A stretch of 64,000 nucleotides of DNA from assembly GCA_041874725.1 (NCBI GenBank), contig CP097466.1, positions 434,001 through 498,000 of the forward strand, given 5' to 3'. Under the pieces are notes generated by a model. That model ran no database searches. It was not told the origin of the DNA and saw only the letters and a program-made list of their open reading frames with translations. Of this stretch, positions 18,702 to 27,997 are shown piece after piece; position 1 is the stretch's first letter; each line of letters opens with the position of its first letter. Source of the stretch: Duganella sp. BuS-21. Lineage in GTDB: Bacteria; Pseudomonadota; Gammaproteobacteria; Burkholderiales; Burkholderiaceae_D. The translations under genes and the position numbers were made by a program.

Positions 18702-18779
18702 GATGTATACGCGTTTTTACAAGACCGCCATCTTAGCAAGAGTTATCGTGAGTTTTTCATCCCCCGACAGGAGAAACGC

Positions 18780-19409
18780 ATGAACCAGCAACTGACCTTG
18801 TACTACTGCCCCCACTCGCGCGCGACCGGCGTGCTGACGCTGCTCGAAGAACTGCACGCGCCCTACGAGCTGCACGTGCTGAACATGAAAAAAGGCGAGA
18901 CCCGCGCATCCGAATATCTGGCGATCAACCCGATGGGCAAGGTGCCCGCCATCCGTCATGGCGACGCCGTGGTGACCGAGCAAGTGGCCATCTACCTGTA
19001 CCTGGCCGACCTGTTCCCGGAAGCCAAGCTGGCCCCCGCGCTGGGCGACCCGCTGCGCGGCCCTTACCTGCGCTGGATGGCCTTCTACGGCAGCTGCTTC
19101 GAACCGGCCATCGTCGACCAGTGGATGAAGAACAAGCCGGCCGACAAAACCGCCTGCCACTACGGCGACTTCGACACCATGTTCAGCACGCTGGTGGAAC
19201 AGTTGTCCAAAGGCCCCTACCTGCTGGGCGAACAATTCAGCGCGCTGGATGTGCTGTGGGGAACGGCCTTCGGCTGGATGCTGATGTTCGGCATCATCCC
19301 CAAGCTGCCCATCATCGAACAGTATGTGGAGCGCTTCAACAGCCGTCCGGCCACCGTTGCCGCGCACGAAAAAGAAAACGCGCTGGCAGCGGAACAAGCC
19401 GCCGCGTGA
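18780..19409 (+). CDS. Glutathione S-transferase family protein
   Basis: The 209-residue protein has a thioredoxin-like N-terminal domain beginning LTLYYCPHSRATGVLTLLEE, with NPMGKVPAI containing the cis-proline and TEQVAIYLYLAD containing the glutathione gamma-glutamyl site. An all-helical C-terminal domain follows. The ATG follows GACAGGAGAAACGC. Such enzymes conjugate or reduce substrates with glutathione in the cytoplasm, and the substrate is unknown. It is divergent from the AraC/RelE chimera and convergent with the VOC gene. Confidence 0.88.
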   Translation: MNQQLTLYYCPHSRATGVLTLLEELHAPYELHVLNMKKGETRASEYLAINPMGKVPAIRHGDAVVTEQVAIYLYLADLFPEAKLAPALGDPLRGPYLRWMAFYGSCFEPAIVDQWMKNKPADKTACHYGDFDTMFSTLVEQLSKGPYLLGEQFSALDVLWGTAFGWMLMFGIIPKLPIIEQYVERFNSRPATVAAHEKENALAAEQAAA

Positions 19410-19413
19410 TGGA

Positions 19414-19779
19414 TCAGCGTTTTTCTTCCATCACCGCCAGCAGATGACTGTCCGGGTCGCGGAAGAAGCCCATCCATAGTTCGTGGTCGGGCATCTTGGC
19501 GACCAGGTGCGGTTCGCGTTCAAACTTGACGCCCTTGGCTTGCAGGTCGGCGGCCACGGCCTCAATCTGTTCGACCTTGAAGTAGTGGCAGACGCCGGTG
19601 CCGGCGTCGATCTTGTCTTTGCCGCCTTCCAGCATCAGCCGCACGCCGCCGCAGTCGAAAAACACCAGGTCGCCGAAGCGGAACAGCTTGGGCAAGCCTA
19701 GTGCTTCGCCGTAAAACTGTTCCGCGCGGTCTGCGCTGGTGACGGGAAGTGCGATCTGCCCCACGGTGGACAATCCCAT
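19414..19779 (-). CDS. VOC (glyoxalase/bleomycin-resistance) family protein
   Basis: This 121-residue single-domain protein has the paired beta-alpha-beta-beta-beta folds of the vicinal-oxygen-chelate family, including ITSADRAEQFYGEALGLP near the start and the C-terminal FFRDPDSHLLAVMEEK with the metal-binding glutamate. The function within VOC (lyase, dioxygenase, binding protein) cannot be chosen. It is 9 bp downstream of speD and on the same strand, so it may be the last gene of the polyamine-island operon. Confidence 0.8.
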   Translation of the reverse strand: MGLSTVGQIALPVTSADRAEQFYGEALGLPKLFRFGDLVFFDCGGVRLMLEGGKDKIDAGTGVCHYFKVEQIEAVAADLQAKGVKFEREPHLVAKMPDHELWMGFFRDPDSHLLAVMEEKR

Positions 19780-19788
19780 GATGGCTCC

Positions 19789-20184
19789 TTATGGCGGCCC
19801 GCGCCGCGCGGTGTGAATATGCGTTGTCTGAGGCTGTAAAGCGCTTTCGATGAGAGCGAGCGCTAACTCCGGTTGCGCTTTGCCGCACATAAAGATGTCG
19901 GCGGCGGCGAAGCCGCATTCCGGCCAGGTGTGGATGGTGATGTGGGATTCGGCCAGCAGCACTACGCCGGTCACGCCCTGGCCTTCGCCGAAGGCGTGGA
20001 AGTGGCTGAACAGGACGCGCGCCTCGGCCGCTTCGGCGGCGCTGCGCAATAGCGCTTCCAGCGCGCCGCAATCGCACAATTTTTCGGCGGCAATGCCGCT
20101 CAGGTCGGCCAGCACGTGAGTGCCGGAAGGCGCGTGCACCGCGACCGACGTCGCGCAAAGGACCGGAATGGCTTCGCGCTTCAT
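19789..20184 (-). CDS. speD: S-adenosylmethionine decarboxylase (SpeD/SpeH type)
   Basis: AdoMet decarboxylase makes decarboxylated AdoMet, the aminopropyl donor for spermidine-type polyamines. The 131-residue proenzyme carries the self-cleavage motif LLAESHITIHTWPE, with Ser80 as the future pyruvoyl group after cleavage behind Glu79. His85 and Cys100 (in DIFMCG) are the expected processing and catalytic residues. It is coupled by an ATGA overlap to the glycine-rich gene upstream. An aminopropyltransferase that would use its product lies 3 kb away on the other strand. Confidence 0.93.
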   Translation of the reverse strand: MKREAIPVLCATSVAVHAPSGTHVLADLSGIAAEKLCDCGALEALLRSAAEAAEARVLFSHFHAFGEGQGVTGVVLLAESHITIHTWPECGFAAADIFMCGKAQPELALALIESALQPQTTHIHTARRGPP

Positions 20185-20360
20185 TTGTGACCGCCGCCGC
20201 CGGAACCGCCGCCCCAGCTGCCACCGCCGCCGCCCGTGTGCGAACTCCAGGTGCTGCCGCGATAGCCGCTACCGCCGCCGCCGCCAGCACCCATGCGCAG
20301 CCAACTGCTGCCTGAGGTCAGCAGCGTGACGATGATCGCGTAGATGAAATATTTACTCAT
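20181..20360 (-). CDS. Glycine-rich single-helix mini-protein
   Basis: The 59-residue product has a short N-terminal hydrophobic helix (YFIYAIIVTLLT, residues 4-15) followed by a tail of glycine runs broken by Ser, Trp and His, ending GGGGHK. It is joined by 4-bp ATGA overlaps both to the DUF4178 gene upstream and to speD downstream, which strongly supports translation despite its size. The helix predicts insertion in or secretion across the inner membrane with an exposed flexible tail. I know no function for it. Confidence 0.75.
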   Translation of the reverse strand: MSKYFIYAIIVTLLTSGSSWLRMGAGGGGGSGYRGSTWSSHTGGGGGSWGGGSGGGGHK

Positions 20361-21826
20361 GCTTTGTCATTGTTATCGAGAAAGATGGCCGGCAGGTAGA
20401 TGGCCAGCGCGCCGACCGCGCTCAGGAACCAGGTCTCGGAAAAATTGGACAGCAAGGGAATCGCGTTCACCGCCAGCATGAACCAGATGATGTACTTGGC
20501 GGTGTTGCGGTAGCGGTTGTTGGCGAACGGCTTGGACTTCGACGGCGACTTCAGCCGGCCCTTGAAGGCCGCGCCAAACCACAGCGCCAGCTGGTCGGCC
20601 GACACCGGCGACGAGCGCGACCACGTCATTTCATGTTCGCTGGTCTCAGCCGCCAGCCGCAGCTGACCGGCCTGGAATTCCTCGACCTGGGTGCGGTCGC
20701 CGACGGCAACGCGCCAGTTGAAGGCGCCCACCGCGTAGGTGACCACCGAACCGTAATCGTACAGGCGGGAAAACTGGACTTTATCCACAAGCGCCGTCGG
20801 CGCGCCCGGTCGGTAGGTGAGCGGCCATTCGGCCAATACGTTGGCGCCGGACCAGCCTTCGTCGGTCTCCACCAGCCACGAGAAGCCCGAGCGCGGGCCG
20901 TACATCAGGTATTCGTTCCACTGCGTGCCTTCATCGTCGGCGCGGCGCATCATGCCGATGATGGTGAATTCCTGGTTGTTGATCCTGGCCGTGGCGCCCA
21001 GTTCCAGCGTCAGCGGCACGGCCGCCACGCGTTCGCCCGCCGCCACCACCTGCGCTTTCGGGCTGGCGGCGTCGATTTGCGTGGCGCACGCCGGGCACAC
21101 CAGGTTGGCCGTCACGCCCGGCAGGTATTTGATCGGGCTGCCGCACGCCGGACAATCAAGCGCATCGAGCTTGCCGCGATAACGGCCGGCGGCGCGCTGG
21201 ATGGTGTCGTCGTCGCGCAGCAGCTGGCATTGCAGGCTGTCCAGCGTCACCGCCAGGCCGGTGTAGATGACGGGGCGCGGCGAGTCCGAATAATCGAGCG
21301 TGATGAATTCCGCGCCGCGCCGGAAGTCGGCCACCCGCGCCTGATAGCCGTCGCCCACCTTGAACGGCAGCTCGCCCTGGCCGCCGACGCAATCGGCGAC
21401 GCGGATCTCGGCCGCCAGGTAGGGCGCACCGTTGATCGGGTAAGTCCGTCCCGGCGTCAGTTCTTCAAAGGAGGGCAGTTGCGCCTCGCCCTGGTATTCG
21501 GCGGTGATGGTGTACATGCCGGACGAATCGCCCAGCCACGAGGTTTTGCCGTCGTCGAAAAACAAAAACCACTCGTTCCACATGCCGGCCGAATAACGCA
21601 GCTGGATGCGGCCCACCACCGTGAACGGCCGTCCGCCCAGCACACCGGAGGTGCCGATCTGGATCGGCGAGTAGTCCTCCAGCACGGACGACATCTTGCC
21701 CAGGTCCTTGACCGCGTCCGCATCCTTGAGCACACGGGTGCTGCAATACTCGCAGACAGCCATGACCGAGGCGTGCGAGCGGAATTTGACCTCCGCGCCG
21801 CAGCTGGGACAGGAAACGATCTGCAC
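20357..21826 (-). CDS. DUF4178 protein with two zinc ribbons and C-terminal membrane helices
   Basis: This 489-residue protein is an internal duplication. Each half starts with a zinc ribbon (CPSC...CEYC at residues 6-28, CPAC...CPAC around 224-250) and continues with a DUF4178 beta-rich domain that repeats the WNE(W/Y)L pattern (MWNEWFLFF and QWNEYLMYG). Two hydrophobic segments near the end (IIWFMLAVNAIPLL and FLSAVGALAIYLPAIFL) anchor it. The function of DUF4178 is unknown to me. It is 4 bp from the SPFH gene and overlaps the glycine-rich gene by 4 bp, so the three belong to one operon. Confidence 0.88.
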   Translation of the reverse strand: MQIVSCPSCGAEVKFRSHASVMAVCEYCSTRVLKDADAVKDLGKMSSVLEDYSPIQIGTSGVLGGRPFTVVGRIQLRYSAGMWNEWFLFFDDGKTSWLGDSSGMYTITAEYQGEAQLPSFEELTPGRTYPINGAPYLAAEIRVADCVGGQGELPFKVGDGYQARVADFRRGAEFITLDYSDSPRPVIYTGLAVTLDSLQCQLLRDDDTIQRAAGRYRGKLDALDCPACGSPIKYLPGVTANLVCPACATQIDAASPKAQVVAAGERVAAVPLTLELGATARINNQEFTIIGMMRRADDEGTQWNEYLMYGPRSGFSWLVETDEGWSGANVLAEWPLTYRPGAPTALVDKVQFSRLYDYGSVVTYAVGAFNWRVAVGDRTQVEEFQAGQLRLAAETSEHEMTWSRSSPVSADQLALWFGAAFKGRLKSPSKSKPFANNRYRNTAKYIIWFMLAVNAIPLLSNFSETWFLSAVGALAIYLPAIFLDNNDKA

Positions 21827-21830
21827 GCGC

Positions 21831-22859
21831 TTAGCCGATCAGTTTTTTCAGGAGTTCGGCTTTGGCGCTGTCGTAGTCGGCGGCCGAGATCAGGCCCTTG
21901 TCGAGCAGGCCCTTGAGTTTTTCCAGGCGCGCTTCGATCGGCTCTTCAGCGGGTGCCGAAGCCGGAGCGGCGGCCTGCGGCGCCAGCGCCGCGCCCATGC
22001 TCTGGCCGATCACCTGGCCGACCGACAGGCCGGCGCCCAAACCCGCGCCGATGCCCGCCAGGCCGCCTTCATTGCCCGCCGCCAGCGGAATCGAACTGGC
22101 TACCTGGTATTTGGTGAAGCCGGCCATTTTGTCGGCGCTCAGGCCGCCCTTCATGCCGGCCGAGATGCGTTCGTCGAGCGCCGCCTGCAGTTCCTCCGGC
22201 AGGCTGACGCTGGCGACGTTGAATTCATCGAGCGCGATGCCGTAGCGGGCAAACGCGGTGGTCAGGTCGCCCTTGACCTGCTGCGCCATCAGGGCCTGGT
22301 TGGCCGCCATGTCGAGGAAGGGCACTTGCGAGGCGCCCAGCGAACTGGCCATGGTCGCCATCAGGATGCCGCGCAGCTGGTCTTCCACCTCGTCGCGGGT
22401 GTAGGTCTCGCGGGTGCCGCTGATCTCCGTGAAGAAGGCGCGCGCATTGGTTACGCGGTACGAGTACATGCCGAAGGCGCGCACGCGCACCATGTCGAAA
22501 TCCTTGTCGCGGATGGTGATCGGCTGCGGCGTGCCCCATTTGCGGCCGGTCTGGATACGGGTGCTGAAAAAGTACACGTCCGACTTGAACGGCGAATCAA
22601 ACAGCTTGTCCCAATTTTTCAGGTTGGTCAGTACCGGCAGGGTTTGCGTGGTCAGCGTGTGGGTGCCGGGGCCGAACACGTCGGCGATCTGGCCCTCGTT
22701 GACGAACAGCGCCACCTGCGATTCGCGCACCACCAGTTGACCGCCGTTCTGGATCTCCTGGTCGGCCATCGGATAGCGCCAGGCCAGCACGCCGTCCGTG
22801 TCCTCGTTCCATTGCAGTACGTCGATAAACTGCTTCTTGATAAAGCTGCCGATACCCAT
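21831..22859 (-). CDS. SPFH/band-7 domain protein with C-terminal SHOCT-like domain
   Basis: The 342-residue protein starts MGIGSFIKKQFIDVLQW. It contains a virion-core-like SPFH domain (roughly residues 30-250) with GPGTHTLTTQTLPVL, lacks a clear N-terminal membrane helix, and has a glycine/alanine-rich linker (IGAGLGAGLSVGQVIGQSMG). The C-terminal RLEKLKGLLDKGLISAADYD is a SHOCT-type short oligomerisation domain. Such proteins form membrane-associated rings or scaffolds. The start at 22859 is the first ATG matching the family N-terminus. The frame stays open further upstream through the DUF350 gene, but only out of phase with it. Confidence 0.88.
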   Translation of the reverse strand: MGIGSFIKKQFIDVLQWNEDTDGVLAWRYPMADQEIQNGGQLVVRESQVALFVNEGQIADVFGPGTHTLTTQTLPVLTNLKNWDKLFDSPFKSDVYFFSTRIQTGRKWGTPQPITIRDKDFDMVRVRAFGMYSYRVTNARAFFTEISGTRETYTRDEVEDQLRGILMATMASSLGASQVPFLDMAANQALMAQQVKGDLTTAFARYGIALDEFNVASVSLPEELQAALDERISAGMKGGLSADKMAGFTKYQVASSIPLAAGNEGGLAGIGAGLGAGLSVGQVIGQSMGAALAPQAAAPASAPAEEPIEARLEKLKGLLDKGLISAADYDSAKAELLKKLIG

Positions 22860-22876
22860 GATGGTCCTCGCTTGAA

Positions 22877-23263
22877 TTAGGAGATGCAGGCGCCGTTGAT
22901 CACGCCGATGGAAATGGCGATGGCGGAGAGCAGGCCGCCAAACGCAGTGTTGTTCGCTTCGATCTGGTCTTTCGCCATGTTCAACACACGGGTGGTGATG
23001 GCGTAGGCCAGCCCCTGTACCACCATGGCGCCGAAGGCCCAGGCGAAGAATTCGCGGTAATCGGCAGTATGCATCAGCGCCGAACCGATGGTGATGGAAA
23101 AACCTATCAGCGCCCCGCCCAGCGATAGCGCCGCCGCCTGATTGCCCTCGCGGATCAGCCTGACCTCGTCGTATGGTGTCATCCAGCTGTAGGCTTTGAA
23201 GAACACCGCCAGCAGCACGGCGGCCAATAGCAGGTGAATCAGATAGTTTAGGATGGCGGGCAC
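22877..23263 (-). CDS. DUF350 small membrane protein
   Basis: The 128-residue protein has four predicted membrane helices and the DUF350 pattern GNQAAALSLGGALIGFSITI near residues 40-60, repeated in part by NTAFGGLLSAIAISIGVING at the end. It is the first gene of the minus-strand part of the polyamine island, 17 bp before the SPFH gene and 51 bp from the divergent aminopropyltransferase start. The shared short intergenic space suggests joint regulation. Its biochemical role is unknown. Confidence 0.88.
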   Translation of the reverse strand: MPAILNYLIHLLLAAVLLAVFFKAYSWMTPYDEVRLIREGNQAAALSLGGALIGFSITIGSALMHTADYREFFAWAFGAMVVQGLAYAITTRVLNMAKDQIEANNTAFGGLLSAIAISIGVINGACIS

Positions 23264-23314
23264 GGCGCACCTTCAGGTAAAGTGATTACTTGATAATAAT
23301 GCAAACGAACGTAA

Positions 23315-24826
23315 ATGACCAAAAAGATTCTGATCTTGTCCGTCTTCGTGGTGGCGTCCTGCGGGCTGGCGTATGAGCTGATTGCCGGCGCGCTGTCGAG
23401 CTATCTGCTGGGCGATTCGGTGCTGCAGTTCTCCACGATTATCGGATGCTACCTGTTTGCCATGGGCGTGGGCGCGCACTTCTCCAAGTATGTGCGCGAC
23501 GAGGACGTGCTGGCGCGCTTCGTCGACATCGAACTGGCGGTCGGCCTGGTCGGCGGCCTGTCGGCGGCGCTGCTGTTCCTGACGTTTTCCTGGATGCCGG
23601 CGCCGTTCCGCACGCTGTTGTACACCATGGTGTTCCTGATCGGCGCCTTCGTCGGCATGGAGGTGCCGCTGGTGATGCGCGCGCTGAACGAGCGCAAGAC
23701 GGAATTCAATGAGCTGGTCAGCAAGGTGCTGACCTTCGACTACTTGGGCGCGCTGGCGGTGTCGCTGCTGTTCCCGCTGGTGCTGGCGCCGTATCTGGGG
23801 CTGGTGCGCACCGGTTTTCTGTTCGGGATGCTGAATGTCGGCGTCGCCCTGTGGACAATCAAGGTCTTTTCCACAGAGCTGAAAAACGTCGCCGGCCGCA
23901 TGCTGCGCGCCTGCGCGGTGCTGTGCGTGCTGGTATTCGGCTTCGCCTTCGCCGACAAGCTCACTTACTGGGGCGAACACGGCCTGTTCGGCGATGAAAT
24001 CGTCTATGCCACCACCACGCCGTACCAGCGACTGGTCATCACGCGCTGGAAGGATGACACGCGCCTGTACATCAACGGCAACCTGCAATTCTCCTCGCGT
24101 GACGAATACCGTTATCACGAGGCGCTGGTGCATCCGGTGCTGCAGCCCATGCCGTGGGCGCGGCGCGTGCTGGTGCTGGGCGGCGGCGACGGTCTGGCGC
24201 TGCGCGAGATCCTGCGTTATCCGAACATCGAGCACGTCACGCTGGTGGACCTGGACCCGGCCATGACCGGCGCTTTCATGCAGCGCGAAGAACTGGTCAA
24301 GCTCAATCACGGCTCGCTCAAGGATAAGCGGGTGCGCGTGGTGAACGCCGACGCCGCCATCTGGCTGCAGCACAACGACGATATGTTCGATGCGGTGATC
24401 GTCGATTTCCCCGATCCCTCCAGCTTCGCGCTGGGCAAGCTGTACTCGGTGCCGTTCTACGGCATGGTGCGCAAGCACCTGGCGGCCAACGGCTTGATGG
24501 TGGTGCAATCGACGTCGCCGTTCTTCGCACCGCACGCCTACTGGACCATCGACGCCACCTTGCGCGAGGTGGGTTTGAAAACCTATCCGTTCCACGCCTA
24601 CGTACCGTCGTTCGGCGAGTGGGGCTTCATCCTGGCGACGCCGCAGGCCAACTACACGCCGCCCACCAGCTACCGCCTGCCGATGCGCTACCTGAACGCC
24701 GACACCACGCGCGAGATGTTCATTTTCCCGCCCGATATGAAGCCGCTGCCGATGGCGCCTAACCGTCTCAACACCCAGTCGCTCGTGCATGAATTCGAGC
24801 AGGACTGGCGCCGGGTGATCCGCTGA
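23315..24826 (+). CDS. Seven-TM membrane-anchored spermidine synthase-like aminopropyltransferase
   Basis: The 503-residue protein has an N-terminal half with about seven membrane helices (residues 5-220) and a C-terminal SpeE-type domain. The latter shows TTTPYQRLVI, YINGNLQFSSRDEYRYHEAL, the AdoMet-site motif LVLGGGDGLALRE (about 285-297), LVDLDPAM and the catalytic-region IVDFPDPSS (about 362-370). It would transfer an aminopropyl group from decarboxylated AdoMet, made by the nearby SpeD, to an amine acceptor at the membrane. The acceptor is unknown. It shares a stop/start (TGATG) with the following oxidoreductase. Confidence 0.88.
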   Translation: MTKKILILSVFVVASCGLAYELIAGALSSYLLGDSVLQFSTIIGCYLFAMGVGAHFSKYVRDEDVLARFVDIELAVGLVGGLSAALLFLTFSWMPAPFRTLLYTMVFLIGAFVGMEVPLVMRALNERKTEFNELVSKVLTFDYLGALAVSLLFPLVLAPYLGLVRTGFLFGMLNVGVALWTIKVFSTELKNVAGRMLRACAVLCVLVFGFAFADKLTYWGEHGLFGDEIVYATTTPYQRLVITRWKDDTRLYINGNLQFSSRDEYRYHEALVHPVLQPMPWARRVLVLGGGDGLALREILRYPNIEHVTLVDLDPAMTGAFMQREELVKLNHGSLKDKRVRVVNADAAIWLQHNDDMFDAVIVDFPDPSSFALGKLYSVPFYGMVRKHLAANGLMVVQSTSPFFAPHAYWTIDATLREVGLKTYPFHAYVPSFGEWGFILATPQANYTPPTSYRLPMRYLNADTTREMFIFPPDMKPLPMAPNRLNTQSLVHEFEQDWRRVIR

Positions 24827-26457
24827 TGCTGCGCCGCTCATTCCTGGTCTGGGCCGGCGCCTCGGGGCTGGCCGCCGCCGGCAGCGGGCTGGCGTTCCAG
24901 CGCTGGCAGGAGATCACACCGAATCTGCACTACGTCGGCCGCGACGAGGGCCACTTCCTGCGCGACCATGCGTCGCGCGGCGCCTTGCCGCCGCCGTCGC
25001 AGCTTATCCACACCGACATCGCCATTCTCGGCTCCGGCATCTCGGGACTGACGGCCGCGTGGAAGCTGAAAAAGCTGGGCAAGACCGACGTGCTGATGAT
25101 CGACGGCCCTCAGCCCTACGGGAATGCCGCCGGCGGCGCCTTCGACGAATACGCGTATCCGACCGGCGGTCACTATCTGCCGCTGCCGTCGCCGGAATCC
25201 ACGCACGTGCGCGAGATCCTGGCGGACCTCGGCATCATTCAAAAAGATGCGATGGCCGAGAAGCCGTACTACGACGAGCGCTTTATCCTGCACGCGCCGG
25301 AAGAGCGCCTGCTGTACAACGGCCATTGGCAGGAAGGCTTCATTCCCACCGAAGGCGTGCCGCAGTGGGAGCTCGATGAGCACAAGCGCTTTTTCGATGA
25401 GGTGCACCGGTTGCGCGACATGCATGGCGCGGACGGCCGGCGCGTGTTCGTGTTCCCGACCGTGATGTCGTCGGAAGATCCGCAGTGGCAGGCGCTGGAC
25501 CGCATCACCCTCAAGCAGTGGATGGACCAGCAAGGCTACAAGTCGCCGACCCTGCACTGGTATCTGAACTACTGCTGCCGCGACGACTACGGCACGCGCT
25601 ATGACAAGGTGTCGGCATGGGCCGGCCTGCACTACTACTGCAGCCGCTGGGGACAGGCAGCGAATGCCGGCGACGGCGCCTGGCTGACATGGCCGGGCGG
25701 CCTGCAGCCGCTGGCCTCCGGCATGGAGCGCGCGGCGGCGATCAAGCGCATGGCGGGAACGGCGCTGTCGCTGAAGAAAACGGCGGACGGCGTCGAGGCA
25801 CTGTGCTTCAAGCTGGAGAACGGCAAGCCGTCCACCTATCGGGTGCGCGCGCGCAAAGCCATCTGCGCCATGCCGACCTATGTGGCGGCACGGGTGGTGG
25901 AGAACATCGCCGCCTACGGTTTCGACCCCGCCAAACACGTGCCGGAATACGCGCCGTGGATGGTGGCGAACTTCCTGCTCAAGCGTTTCCCCGAGGAGCT
26001 GCAGGGCGGCGCCTATCCGCAACCGCTGTCCTGGGATAACGTGGTGTACGGCGAGCCGGGGCTGGGCTTCGTGGTCTCCACCCACCAGGATATCCGCGTG
26101 CGGCCGCCGGAAAAGACCGTGTTCAGCGCCTACGTGGCGCTGTCGGACCGCAAGGCCAGCAGCGCGCGCGGCTGGATGGCGTCGGCCAAGCCGGAGGAGC
26201 TGCTGGCGCTGGCCAGCGCCGACCTGAAGACGGCCTACGGCGCGCAGTTCGCGTCCTGCGTCGAACGGGTCGACATCACGCTGCGCGGCCATGCGATGGC
26301 GGTCCCGTGGCCTAACTTCCGCAGCAACGCCGGCATGAAGGCGCTGCGCGAGGTGGACGGTCCCATCCTGTTCGCCCACGCCGACCTGTCGGGCTTCTCG
26401 GTCTTCGAGGAGGCCGCGTGGTGGGGCTATCGCGCTGCACAGTTGGCCGCCAGGTGA
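24826..26457 (+). CDS. FAD-dependent amine-oxidase-like protein with Tat-type signal
   Basis: The 543-residue protein begins MLRRSFLVWAGASGLAAAG, a twin-arginine signal with RRSFL, predicting export as a folded flavoprotein. An FAD-binding motif IAILGSGISGLTAAWKLKKLG follows at about residues 66-86, and the C-terminal half contains FAHADLSGFSVFEEAAWWGY, as in flavin amine oxidases. Translation is coupled to the aminopropyltransferase by a one-base overlap, suggesting that the oxidase acts on that enzyme's product or a related polyamine. A role as a phytoene-desaturase-like enzyme cannot be excluded from motifs alone. Confidence 0.82.
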   Translation: MLRRSFLVWAGASGLAAAGSGLAFQRWQEITPNLHYVGRDEGHFLRDHASRGALPPPSQLIHTDIAILGSGISGLTAAWKLKKLGKTDVLMIDGPQPYGNAAGGAFDEYAYPTGGHYLPLPSPESTHVREILADLGIIQKDAMAEKPYYDERFILHAPEERLLYNGHWQEGFIPTEGVPQWELDEHKRFFDEVHRLRDMHGADGRRVFVFPTVMSSEDPQWQALDRITLKQWMDQQGYKSPTLHWYLNYCCRDDYGTRYDKVSAWAGLHYYCSRWGQAANAGDGAWLTWPGGLQPLASGMERAAAIKRMAGTALSLKKTADGVEALCFKLENGKPSTYRVRARKAICAMPTYVAARVVENIAAYGFDPAKHVPEYAPWMVANFLLKRFPEELQGGAYPQPLSWDNVVYGEPGLGFVVSTHQDIRVRPPEKTVFSAYVALSDRKASSARGWMASAKPEELLALASADLKTAYGAQFASCVERVDITLRGHAMAVPWPNFRSNAGMKALREVDGPILFAHADLSGFSVFEEAAWWGYRAAQLAAR

Positions 26458-26469
26458 TATCCTGAAGCG

Positions 26470-27312
26470 ATGACACATGACGCCCGCCAGCGCTTCCGCG
26501 CCTCCGCTAAACTCAAACTGCGCGAGGAGGAGGCGGACGACGCCACGTTCTCCAGCCGCGCCGCTAATCCCAAGCTCGGTAAGTCGCGCGGTAAAGCGCT
26601 TGATCTTGAGCGCACTGCCGCGCTGATCGACCGCATCGCCGCGCTGCAGGACAAGCTGTATGCGCAGCACCAGAAAAAGGTGCTGCTGGTTTTGCAGGGT
26701 ATGGACACTTCGGGCAAGGACGGCACGGTGCGCGCGCTGTTCAGTCGCATCAGCCCCATGGGCCTGCGCGCGGTGGCCTTCAAGGGCCCGACCGACAACG
26801 AACTGGCGCACGACTACCTGTGGCGCGTGCACCAGCATGTGCCGGTGAAGGGCGAGATCGCCATCTTCAACCGCAGTCATTACGAGGATGTGCTGATCAC
26901 CCGGGTGCAGGGCTGGATCGACGACGACGAGTGCAGGCGCCGCTACTCGCAGATTCGCGATTTCGAGCGCATGCTGGCGGAAACCGGCACGGTGATCGTC
27001 AAGGTGTTCCTGCACATCTCCAAGGAGGAGCAGCGCGAGCGCTTGCAGGAGCGGCTGGACGATCCGGACAAGCAGTGGAAGTTCAACCCGGAAGACGTCA
27101 AACAGCGCGGGAAATGGGACGACTACCTGCGCGCCTACGAAAAGGCGATCCGCGAGACCAATGTGCCGCACGCGCCGTGGTACGTGGTGCCGGCCAATTC
27201 GAAAACCCATCGCAATCTGGTGATCGCCAGCCTGCTGCTGGAAACGCTGGAGGGCATGGAGCTCAACTACCCGCCGCCGCATCCCGACCTGTCCTCCTTC
27301 ACGGTGGCGTAG
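26470..27312 (+). CDS. ppk2: Polyphosphate kinase 2 family protein
   Basis: This 280-residue single-domain PPK2 has the Walker A-like LQGMDTSGKDGT near residues 78-89 and the lid/Walker B region FNRSHYEDVLI near 136. The EDVKQRGKWDDYLRAYEKAI and APWYVVPANSKTHRN segments are typical of polyphosphate:nucleotide phosphotransferases. It moves phosphate between polyphosphate and AMP or ADP in the cytoplasm. It starts 12 bp after the oxidoreductase, so it is probably in the same transcript, and its 3' end overlaps the convergent esterase fragment by 14 bp. Confidence 0.92.
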   Translation: MTHDARQRFRASAKLKLREEEADDATFSSRAANPKLGKSRGKALDLERTAALIDRIAALQDKLYAQHQKKVLLVLQGMDTSGKDGTVRALFSRISPMGLRAVAFKGPTDNELAHDYLWRVHQHVPVKGEIAIFNRSHYEDVLITRVQGWIDDDECRRRYSQIRDFERMLAETGTVIVKVFLHISKEEQRERLQERLDDPDKQWKFNPEDVKQRGKWDDYLRAYEKAIRETNVPHAPWYVVPANSKTHRNLVIASLLLETLEGMELNYPPPHPDLSSFTVA

Positions 27313-27997
27313 CGCCGGTCAGCCGGTCCACCATGCGCTTGACGGCCGCCATCTGGCGGCCTGTTTTTTGGGCGTAGCGCGTATCGTCGTGGGCGAACCA
27401 GTCCCAGCACGCATTCGGATTGGTGAAGGTGGCGGCGGTCTGTGGATACAGCAGCAGCAAACGGTTGTTGTCGGCCCAGGCGTTGTAGCCGGCGTGGCGC
27501 ACGAAGTCGGCGCCGATGCTGTCGGGATTTTGCTGGCAGCCGTGGAATACCACATGCAGCCTGCAGCCCGCTCCCGCATTGACGCCGCAGGCCTGCGGGA
27601 TGTAGAGGTAGCCGAAATCCGCCAGGCCGTGCCAGCCGGGCAGGGAGATGAATTCCGACTGGTCGAAAGCGATGAAGCGACCGCGCAGCGCGCCGGTGTT
27701 GCGCGCGTCCAGGGGGCCGTAGATCCAGCTCAGCAATTCGCCGGCGGCGCCGTAGTTGCAGTAGTTGATGTAGGGCGAGCGCAGCGACTGGCAACTGTTG
27801 CCGTAACTGTCGGTGGGCATGGCGTGTTCGGCATTGAGGTTGCGCCGGTAGACGAACGCCACCTCGAACTGCACCGCCATGTAGGCGCCGGAGGACAGGC
27901 CGGAGACGCTGACCTGGCCCGCGCGCATCGCCGGCAACGACGCCACCTGCGCCTGGACCGCGCCGGCCAGCAACATTAACAGCCAGAAAATACGCAT
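27299..27997 (-). pseudogene. PHB depolymerase-like esterase with large internal deletion
   Basis: The 232-residue frame starts with a signal peptide (MRIFWLLMLLAGAVQAQ), then VSGLSSGAYMAVQF carrying the nucleophile Ser36, as in the family of extracellular PHB depolymerases of about 330-350 residues. It then jumps from residue 47 straight to NAEHAMPTDSYGNSC, which includes the catalytic histidine (His58) and normally lies about 100 residues later. The intervening part, including the glycine-rich pocket and the catalytic aspartate segment, is absent. The rest (YGPLDARNTGA, FDQSEFI, LHVVFHGCQQN) is intact. An in-frame deletion is the simplest reading, and activity is doubtful. Confidence 0.7.

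Follow-up and report, generated by a model that had tools for sequence, protein, structure and literature searches.

The locus and its conservation

The window is a 64,000-nucleotide stretch of the Duganella sp. BuS-21 genome, in which two divergent operons and their flanking genes carry the following features.

19414-19779, minus strand: VOC gene
19789-20184, minus strand: SpeD, class 1b S-adenosylmethionine decarboxylase (Pfam AdoMet_dc, 117.2 bits; TIGR03330, 123.1 bits against a cut-off of 75.65)
20181-20360, minus strand: 59-aa glycine-rich peptide with a hydrophobic N-terminal anchor and a Gly/Ser-rich tail ending GGHK
20357-21826, minus strand: DUF4178 protein with two DUF4178 stretches and a hydrophobic C-terminal part (PF13785, 72.8 bits)
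21831-22859, minus strand: SPFH/Band_7_1 protein with a C-terminal SHOCT (PF13421, 259 bits; SHOCT, 29 bits)
22877-23263, minus strand: DUF350 membrane protein, YjfL family (PF03994, 113 bits)
23264-23314: divergent intergenic gap of 51 bp between the minus- and plus-strand operons
23315-24826, plus strand: 7TM-SpeE, a seven-helix membrane domain with a spermidine-synthase-fold domain (NF002956, 681 bits against a cut-off of 472)
24826-26457, plus strand: twin-arginine flavin oxidoreductase with an amine-oxidase fold (N-terminus MLRRSFLVW)
26470-27312, plus strand: PPK2

The genes, coordinates, 51-bp gap and overlaps given in a preliminary description of this DNA were all correct on re-reading: ATGA overlaps join the DUF4178 gene to the peptide gene and the peptide gene to that of SpeD, and one TGATG overlap joins the 7TM-SpeE and oxidase genes. 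A domain search of the DUF4178 protein also returned zinc-ribbon-like matches below the cut-off. The neighbourhood recurs, a point that the same description had proposed checking. Six genes (SpeD, DUF4178, SPFH, DUF350, 7TM-SpeE and the twin-arginine flavin oxidase) are arranged in the same order and orientation in 77 of 80 Oxalobacteraceae relatives, the other three loci being cut at contig ends; therefore, the arrangement is not due to chance. PPK2, which had been counted as a member of the system, adjoins it in only 30/80 relatives and was removed from the conserved unit. The VOC gene (adjacent in 5/80) and the GST and PHB-depolymerase-like genes, present in part of the relatives only, were ruled out as members.

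Our wider census of 7TM-SpeE was a phylum draw of 44 further loci, with Actinobacteria outside it. DUF350 was found in 43 of 44 genomes with 7TM-SpeE and lay within 10 kb of it in 41 of 45 loci; the twin-arginine oxidase gene was seen in only 12 of the 44 loci. A YgiC-like ATP-grasp ligase reading frame was found in 0/80 Oxalobacteraceae loci, 0/44 further 7TM-SpeE loci and none of the window proteins scanned. Pfam likewise identified no PspA or CesT-like protein among ten proteins from 18777-27997, where an SPFH/Band-7 protein stands in that place.

Related operons have been published. The passages of Ravi et al. 2024 (PMC11237479) that treat them describe 7TM-spermidine-synthase/DUF350/DUF4178 operons with a CesT/Tir-PspA pair, as well as Band-7 variants. 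Their second group comprises 7TM-SpeE, DUF350, DUF4178 and a lipoprotein, and the paragraph on the third, ATP-grasp group includes a Band-7 plus SHOCT variant that also encodes AdoMet decarboxylase and a polyamine oxidase, in which 2TM lies between Band-7 and SHOCT. The window has 7TM-SpeE, DUF350 and DUF4178 in common with these operons; in contrast to the second group, it lacks the CesT/Tir-PspA pair and carries SPFH/Band-7 instead. It combines features of two of the groups, and these passages of PMC11237479 are silent on 7TM-SpeE in the Band-7 variant. They also propose “aminopropylation of other substrates”, and the core idea of related operons aminopropylating an unnamed substrate is accordingly not new.

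The membrane-fused SpeE, the AdoMet decarboxylases and the oxidase

The spermidine synthase fold is present in 7TM-SpeE, and residues D263, E264, Y267, H268, G289, G291, D292, D314, D346, D359, D364 and D367 are kept in 20/20 7TM-SpeE sequences. We take the GGGDG, DE..YH and D-x-x-D-P residues of the SpeE domain to be those of decarboxylated AdoMet (dcAdoMet) binding and catalysis. The acceptor side is altered: all 20 sequences carry P366, A405, F433 and W436, whereas 40 SpeE controls have T366 (39/40), Q405 (34/40), Y433 (40/40) and M436 (32/40). Judged by its residues, the assignment of 7TM-SpeE as an aminopropyltransferase stands; however, because the acceptor-side residues differ from those of the controls, we do not file it as a putrescine aminopropyltransferase.

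Seven helices are predicted in the membrane domain, and counts of Lys and Arg (6-12 versus 0-2, with loop limits set by hand from hydropathy) place the N-terminus inside in 20/20 sequences. An inside N-terminus followed by seven helices puts the SpeE domain outside, and it is thus predicted to lie on the periplasmic side. Matches to the SpdSyn domain crowd the lists of the fold searches, which therefore say little about the membrane part. The synthesis of dcAdoMet takes place in the cytoplasm, and a periplasmic active site as predicted would require dcAdoMet outside it.

SpeD contains the motif AESHITIHTWPE...MCG (AESH...MCG), presumably the self-cleavage motif of class 1b AdoMet decarboxylases. 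It is the only class 1 (PF02675) match in the genome, in which no class 2 AdoMet decarboxylase (PF01536) was matched. No ordinary spermidine synthase was found in this genome. The three other PF01564 matches reach 32-36 bits against 126, though above the Pfam cut-off, and were rejected as a second spermidine synthase; they are PRK04457-like (197-228 against a model cut-off of 304) and lack GGGDG and D-x-T-D-P. Across the phylum draw, a class 1 enzyme is encoded in 33 of 44 7TM-SpeE genomes but is a neighbour (within 10 kb) in no more than 18 of 45 loci, which rules out a universal SpeD linkage. A class 2 enzyme is present in 8 of the 11 genomes without class 1; it may serve spermidine synthesis in G320, G342 and G362, since an ordinary SpeE is encoded beside or near it there. 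Neither class was found in G037, G057 and the 71%-complete G169. The AdoMet decarboxylase linkage is weaker than it looks.

Li et al. 2019 (Biochem J 476:2579) reportedly described MFS-SpdSyn fusions with a DUF350 neighbour and genomic AdoMet decarboxylases, including class 2 enzymes. The fusion is said not to complement or replace speE and to act on another substrate, which is not known to have been named. The window protein shares with these fusions the joining of a membrane domain to SpdSyn; the present analysis adds a concrete candidate acceptor.

The oxidase is predicted to be a Tat-exported flavoprotein, with RR near the N-terminus in 93/93 homologues. Its best Foldseek matches were putrescine oxidase, protoporphyrinogen oxidase and monoamine oxidase (TMq approximately 0.6).

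Lysine-ending tails

The preliminary description had listed the glycine-rich peptide and given it no role. The peptide ends in His-Lys in all 77 Oxalobacteraceae relatives read (80 loci, the other three at contig ends), and the terminal lysine is the only one among the last 30 residues of 76 of the 77 peptides gathered from 84 loci. The codons for His and Lys and the stop codon vary synonymously, and AAG codons and TAA/TAG stops are also found, which rules out that the terminal lysine is forced by the ATGA overlap. This conservation and the His-Lys end are new here. The peptide is apparently exported and membrane-anchored, as predicted from its hydrophobic N-terminus. The pattern G-[GSR]-H-K-stop occurs at four places in this genome, against three for the reversed pattern, and of the four only that in the window falls in a glycine-rich reading frame.

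The tail is carried by proteins of several kinds. Elsewhere, the HK tail is fused to DUF4178, and 118 of 120 listed homologues end in HK, the other two being apparently truncated. PspA-type lipoproteins have a terminal lysine in 12/12 cases read, and other anchored proteins in other genomes bear the tail, again with a terminal lysine.

These endings were counted with a tail detector at fixed settings, designed after lysine tails had already been seen in the 44 phylum-draw loci; its out-of-sample sets were the soluble-SpeE controls and the plasmid, DUF1190 and four split loci. The strict detector found a lysine-ending tail in 33/44 7TM-SpeE loci versus 0/40 soluble-SpeE control loci, and the relaxed detector in 37/44 versus 1/40, a contrast whose P values are overstated because the loci are related by descent. 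Seven of the 11 loci missed by the strict detector show a lysine tail by reading. In the last 4 of the 44 genomes, DUF350 lies apart from 7TM-SpeE, and one lysine-tail carrier was found beside DUF350 in 4/4, as predicted. The named plasmid loci have a lysine tail in 7/7 (two by detector; five, missed by it, by reading). Among the Oxalobacteraceae loci, the strict hydrophobicity limit yielded lysine in only 39/81, and a lowered limit in 76/81. The relaxed setting also gives other endings (Ser 14, Arg 10 and Gly 9 of 44 loci). Ser-ending calls, made in 62/81 Oxalobacteraceae loci, were rejected as carriers and mostly traced to the C-terminus of DUF350 itself. With the same detector, DUF1190 loci, 23/28 of which have a YgiC-like ligase, gave Gly in 13/28 and Lys in 0/28; the DUF1190 proteins read end in GG (18/26), GS (4), SS (2) or other residues with low score (2), and in Lys in none.

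A candidate protein modification and its alternatives

The lysine end in every relative read suggests that the terminal lysine is the enzyme's target, and the 59-aa peptide is the likeliest substrate of 7TM-SpeE. We give even chances to a reaction in which 7TM-SpeE, fed with dcAdoMet by SpeD, aminopropylates the side-chain amine of the tail's C-terminal lysine on the periplasmic face. An exported protein anchored in the membrane would bear the Gly/Ser-rich tail (in the window, the peptide at 20181-20360), and the product would be N6-(3-aminopropyl)lysine. Since a lysine side chain ends in a primary amine on four carbons and so resembles half of putrescine, this product would be a protein-bound mimic of spermidine. 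Passage or presentation of dcAdoMet would fall to the 7TM domain, possibly aided by DUF350; SPFH and DUF4178 might form a scaffold, and the added amine may in turn be a substrate of the twin-arginine oxidase. Any role of the system in envelope stress would be equally conditional. The preliminary description had proposed a membrane aminopropylation machine and had made it depend on AdoMet-type binding residues in the SpeE domain, which all 20 aligned sequences possess. Its core, which includes a twin-arginine protein of amine-oxidase fold, is supported by the sole AdoMet decarboxylase found, SpeD, as a likely feed, and by the retained catalytic residues; its inclusion of PPK2 is not.

The aminopropyltransferase fold and catalytic residues would also suit an enzyme by which a small-molecule polyamine, not spermidine, is made, modified or exported, and the nearest folds of the oxidase, among them those of putrescine and monoamine oxidases, agree with this. 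The lysine-tailed protein would then only dock or sense the polyamine, and the invariant lysine could indeed serve docking, unmodified. We consider this unlikely, although with an appreciable chance, as it leaves unexplained why the very last residue is lysine in carriers of different kinds and why DUF1190 proteins beside peptide-spermidine ligases end otherwise.

The four split genomes, which place the carrier with DUF350 and not with SpeE, indicate that DUF350 may be a direct partner. They are consistent with a small probability that the lysine tail stays unmodified and acts as a signal for recognition or sorting, addressed to DUF350, to SPFH/PspA partners or to an envelope polymer, with no link to the chemistry of SpeE. 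However, in E. coli the DUF350 protein YjfL adjoins YjfM, a DUF1190 protein with a GG terminus, and the terminal residue thus appears to follow the modifying enzyme and not DUF350.

Transfer of the aminopropyl group to a membrane lipid, also allowed by the preliminary description, would fit a membrane-fused enzyme and SPFH and PspA partners, thought to act at membranes in the relevant passages of PMC11237479, but is very improbable, as the conserved unit is without a lipid-synthesis gene and the lysine tail would be left unexplained. The same protein target could be modified before export by a cytoplasmic SpeE domain, where dcAdoMet is made; the predicted helices and the charge counts, which put that domain outside in 20/20 sequences, make this hardly credible.

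Aminopropylation of the terminal lysine would have two partial parallels. In the hypusination of eIF5A, a polyamine-derived amine is built on a lysine side chain; that reaction differs in being cytosolic, with an unrelated enzyme, an internal and not a C-terminal lysine, and an aminobutyl group from spermidine. E. coli YgiC (YgiB-YgiC) and YjfC (YjfM-YjfC) are peptide-spermidine ligases by their RefSeq product names (on such ligases, see Pederick 2023, as cited in PMC12568646). As in the window, a Gly/Ser-rich (DUF1190) protein is encoded beside a polyamine-transferring enzyme, and the yjf operon has DUF350, together with a PspA-family gene. In contrast to the window, the enzyme is an ATP-grasp ligase and not an aminopropyltransferase, and the carriers YgiB and YjfM end in GG, whereas the window peptide ends in GGHK.

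The target of the membrane-fused SpeE was reportedly left open by Li et al. 2019. The passages of PMC11237479 speak only of “other substrates”, and the words “lysine” and “glycine-rich” occur zero times each in that paper; among open-access full texts, the lysine-tail idea was not found in print. The 59-aa peptide, whose tail has one lysine at its very end and no other, provides a concrete candidate acceptor. With a probability that we set slightly short of even, periplasmic aminopropylation of a C-terminal lysine is a protein modification new in kind, which would give secreted or anchored proteins a spermidine-like end and form a counterpart of YgiC/YjfC ligation. If true, it would add a protein modification and explain what SpeD is for in a genome in which the search revealed no ordinary spermidine synthase. 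The SpeE-type and YgiC-type systems would then be two unrelated chemistries that give glycine-rich envelope tails the same type of cationic cap.

Conservation of the cluster and its lysine-ending peptide

Re-reading of the sequence bore out the genes and coordinates of the preliminary description, as well as the 51-bp gap between the divergent operons and all three overlaps; the SPFH gene starts at 22859. The genome is a single contig of 6.49 Mb, and the named relatives closest to it in 7TM-SpeE belong to Duganella species (94–96% identity). A genome scan with 7TM-SpeE yielded 80 named loci (the best 80 of 341); almost all belong to genera that we place in the Oxalobacteraceae, and a few are MAGs of wider label. 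The neighbourhood recurs well beyond the strain: 77/80 relatives carried the six genes in the same order, the SpeD, DUF4178, SPFH, and DUF350 genes sharing a strand and those for 7TM-SpeE and the flavin oxidase lying on the opposite one. The three exceptions (L126, L136, and L141) are loci cut at contig ends. PPK2, previously counted as a member, adjoins the oxidase gene in only 30/80 relatives, and the VOC gene adjoins SpeD in 5/80; therefore, both are bystanders. The flank of the cluster contains the following genes:

18777–19406, plus strand, GST-like gene
19414–19779, minus strand, VOC/glyoxalase-like gene

The 3′ end of PPK2 is overlapped by a gene (27299–27997, minus strand) for a PHB-depolymerase-like protein of 232 aa, which scored 247.9 bits against NF050059, under the cut-off of 280.

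The 59-aa ORF, which lies between the DUF4178 and SpeD genes, encodes a hydrophobic N-terminal stretch and a Gly/Ser tail that terminates in GGHK. All 77 peptides read among the 80 relatives (69 by script and 8 from frame translations; the other three lie at contig ends) end in HK. The final codons vary (CAC or CAT for His, AAA or AAG for Lys, and all three stops); the codon tally gives 80/84 loci, three being cut and L124 lying outside the pattern though ending in HK. In 76/77 peptides, collected from the 84 loci, the final Lys is the only one within the last 30 residues, and a few of the 77 have Cys at a lipobox-like place. In six same-order loci and L063, there is no separate peptide, and the DUF4178 protein itself ends in a membrane segment and an HK tail. 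For one such protein, 118 of the 120 homologues listed (3166 found) end in HK, and the other two look truncated.

Lysine-ending carriers across the phylum

Of 398 genomes drawn evenly from the phylum, 44, that of the window among them, had a 7TM-SpeE match above the curated cut-off of its model; they contain 45 loci, of which 44 lie outside the window’s genome. PspA-type loci encode lipoproteins ending in RGK or GGK (12/12 in one cluster), and further loci encode single-pass proteins of 50–100 aa ending in GGK, GSGK, RIK, or RVK. We tallied every C-terminal residue with a detector for ORFs of at least 35 aa, at most 5.5 kb from SpeE, with a hydrophobic stretch and, in the last 20 residues, no acidic residue and at least seven Gly/Ser. 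At the strict setting, the 44 7TM-SpeE loci gave Lys 33, Ser 3, Ala 2, Arg 1, and Leu 1, versus Lys 0, Gly 1, Gln 1, Tyr 1, and Ser 1 in 40 control loci of soluble-type SpeE from the same list of matches (one, L201, with an 835-aa frame). The Fisher value for Lys tails in this comparison (3e-14) is descriptive only, because the tails of the 44 loci were already known when the detector was designed and then fixed, and descent shared among the loci limits it further. The relaxed setting found Lys in 37/44 loci versus 1/40 controls, with other endings also increased.

Reading revealed a Lys carrier in the strict misses L035, L037, L057, and L059, which the relaxed setting also catches, and in L047, L067, and L074. 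In L038, L041, L052, and L062, DUF350 lies on another contig or approximately 10 kb from 7TM-SpeE; the prediction that the carrier would accompany DUF350 yielded exactly one Lys-tail carrier beside it in each, found with the strict settings too. The detector, the reading, and the DUF350 stretches therefore place a carrier in each of the 44 genomes. The strict detector found Lys in only 39 of the 81 Oxalobacteraceae loci, counting that of the window, as their less hydrophobic anchor causes many to be missed, and in 76 once the hydrophobicity limit was lowered; Ser-ending calls there were mostly DUF350 itself. A Lys carrier is present in all seven named plasmid loci, which came from 13 records whose match was near-complete (L206 and L211 by detector; L207–L210 and L212 on reading only). 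L207 is from Gemmatimonadota, and its carrier had no Pfam match. The 7TM-SpeE operon of L211 (9539–12727), on a plasmid of Alteromonas mediterranea, also encodes a DUF4178 protein, a lipoprotein ending in Lys, and a member of the toxic-anion-resistance family.

In contrast, E. coli YgiB and YjfM end in GG and adjoin genes named peptide-spermidine ligases in RefSeq (see also Pederick 2023, listed among the references of PMC12568646). A draw of 249 genomes contained 28 DUF1190 places; the 26 read ended in GG (18), GS (4), SS (2), or otherwise with low score (2), and none in Lys. In the 28 loci, the strict detector returned 13 Gly, 2 Ser, 1 Val, and no Lys endings. A YgiC-like ORF was present in 23/28 DUF1190 loci and in 0/44 and 0/80 7TM-SpeE loci. 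Thus, the last residue tends to follow the enzyme type: an amide ligase tends to go with a small residue bearing a free carboxylate, and an aminopropyltransferase with the amine of Lys. Many DUF1190 carriers (L213–L238) share an RGGFG-like motif ahead of the small-residue C-terminus, which resembles the R-x-G-S upstream of Lys in many 7TM-SpeE carriers.

The 7TM-SpeE enzyme and its partners

Across 20 diverse 7TM-SpeE proteins, every residue presumed to bind dcAdoMet or to serve catalysis was invariant, while positions presumed to lie on the acceptor side differed from those of 40 SpeE controls (P for T366, A for Q405, F for Y433, and W for M436). E116, R122, D142, and N174 of the membrane domain were also invariant in the 20 sequences, which suggests that this domain is more than an anchor. 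AlphaFold2 predicted seven long helices ahead of the SpdSyn domain (pLDDT 87, pTM 0.72). With loop limits taken from hydropathy, all 20 sequences carried 6–12 Lys and Arg on loops of the N-terminal side and 0–2 on the other, so that the N-terminus is predicted to be inside and the SpeE domain outside.

The flavin protein carries RR close to the N-terminus in 93/93 homologues and has an amine-oxidase fold, with putrescine oxidase, protoporphyrinogen oxidase, and monoamine oxidase as best matches; it occurs in 80/80 Oxalobacteraceae loci, but in only 12 of 44 others. Several tail carriers have a lipobox, and the tail and the oxidase both point to the periplasm.

DUF350 was present in 43/44 7TM-SpeE genomes and lay within 10 kb of 7TM-SpeE in 41/45 loci. 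AdoMetDC was counted within the 7TM-SpeE genomes: class 1 occurred in 33/44, but within 10 kb in only 18/45 loci, and class 2 occurred in 8 of the 11 genomes without class 1. The search for both classes in the 44 genomes found neither in G037, G057, or the 71%-complete G169. In G320, G342, and G362, class 2 (eukaryote-type) AdoMetDC has an ordinary SpeE adjacent or nearby, with which the dcAdoMet pool may be shared. The window’s genome has one class 1 AdoMetDC, no class 2 AdoMetDC, and no other PF01564 match with aminopropyltransferase motifs. Three weak PF01564 matches there (L249, L250, and L251), SpeE-fold proteins that are PRK04457-like yet under that model’s cut-off, lack these motifs and were rejected as a second spermidine synthase.

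Proposed modification of the terminal lysine

The Lys side chain, an amine of four carbons, resembles the half of putrescine alkylated by spermidine synthase, and its aminopropylation would give the tail a spermidine-like end. A periplasmic reaction would need dcAdoMet on the periplasmic side. We consider the case evenly balanced that 7TM-SpeE aminopropylates the C-terminal Lys of the tail. This estimate, like that for a new modification given below, already includes a slight reduction, because in some genomes ordinary spermidine synthesis confounds the co-occurrence of AdoMetDC with 7TM-SpeE.

PMC11237479 describes a group of operons that combine 7TM-SpeE, DUF350, and DUF4178, suggests ‘aminopropylation of other substrates’, and mentions, in the paragraph on the ATP-grasp group, a Band-7 and SHOCT variant that also has AdoMet decarboxylase and polyamine oxidase; neither ‘lysine’ nor ‘glycine-rich’ occurs in it. 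No statement of the lysine-tail idea was found in the open-access literature, the kind searched. Periplasmic aminopropylation of a C-terminal Lys by a membrane relative of SpeE would be a new protein modification, a reading that we put forward tentatively, at slightly below an even chance.
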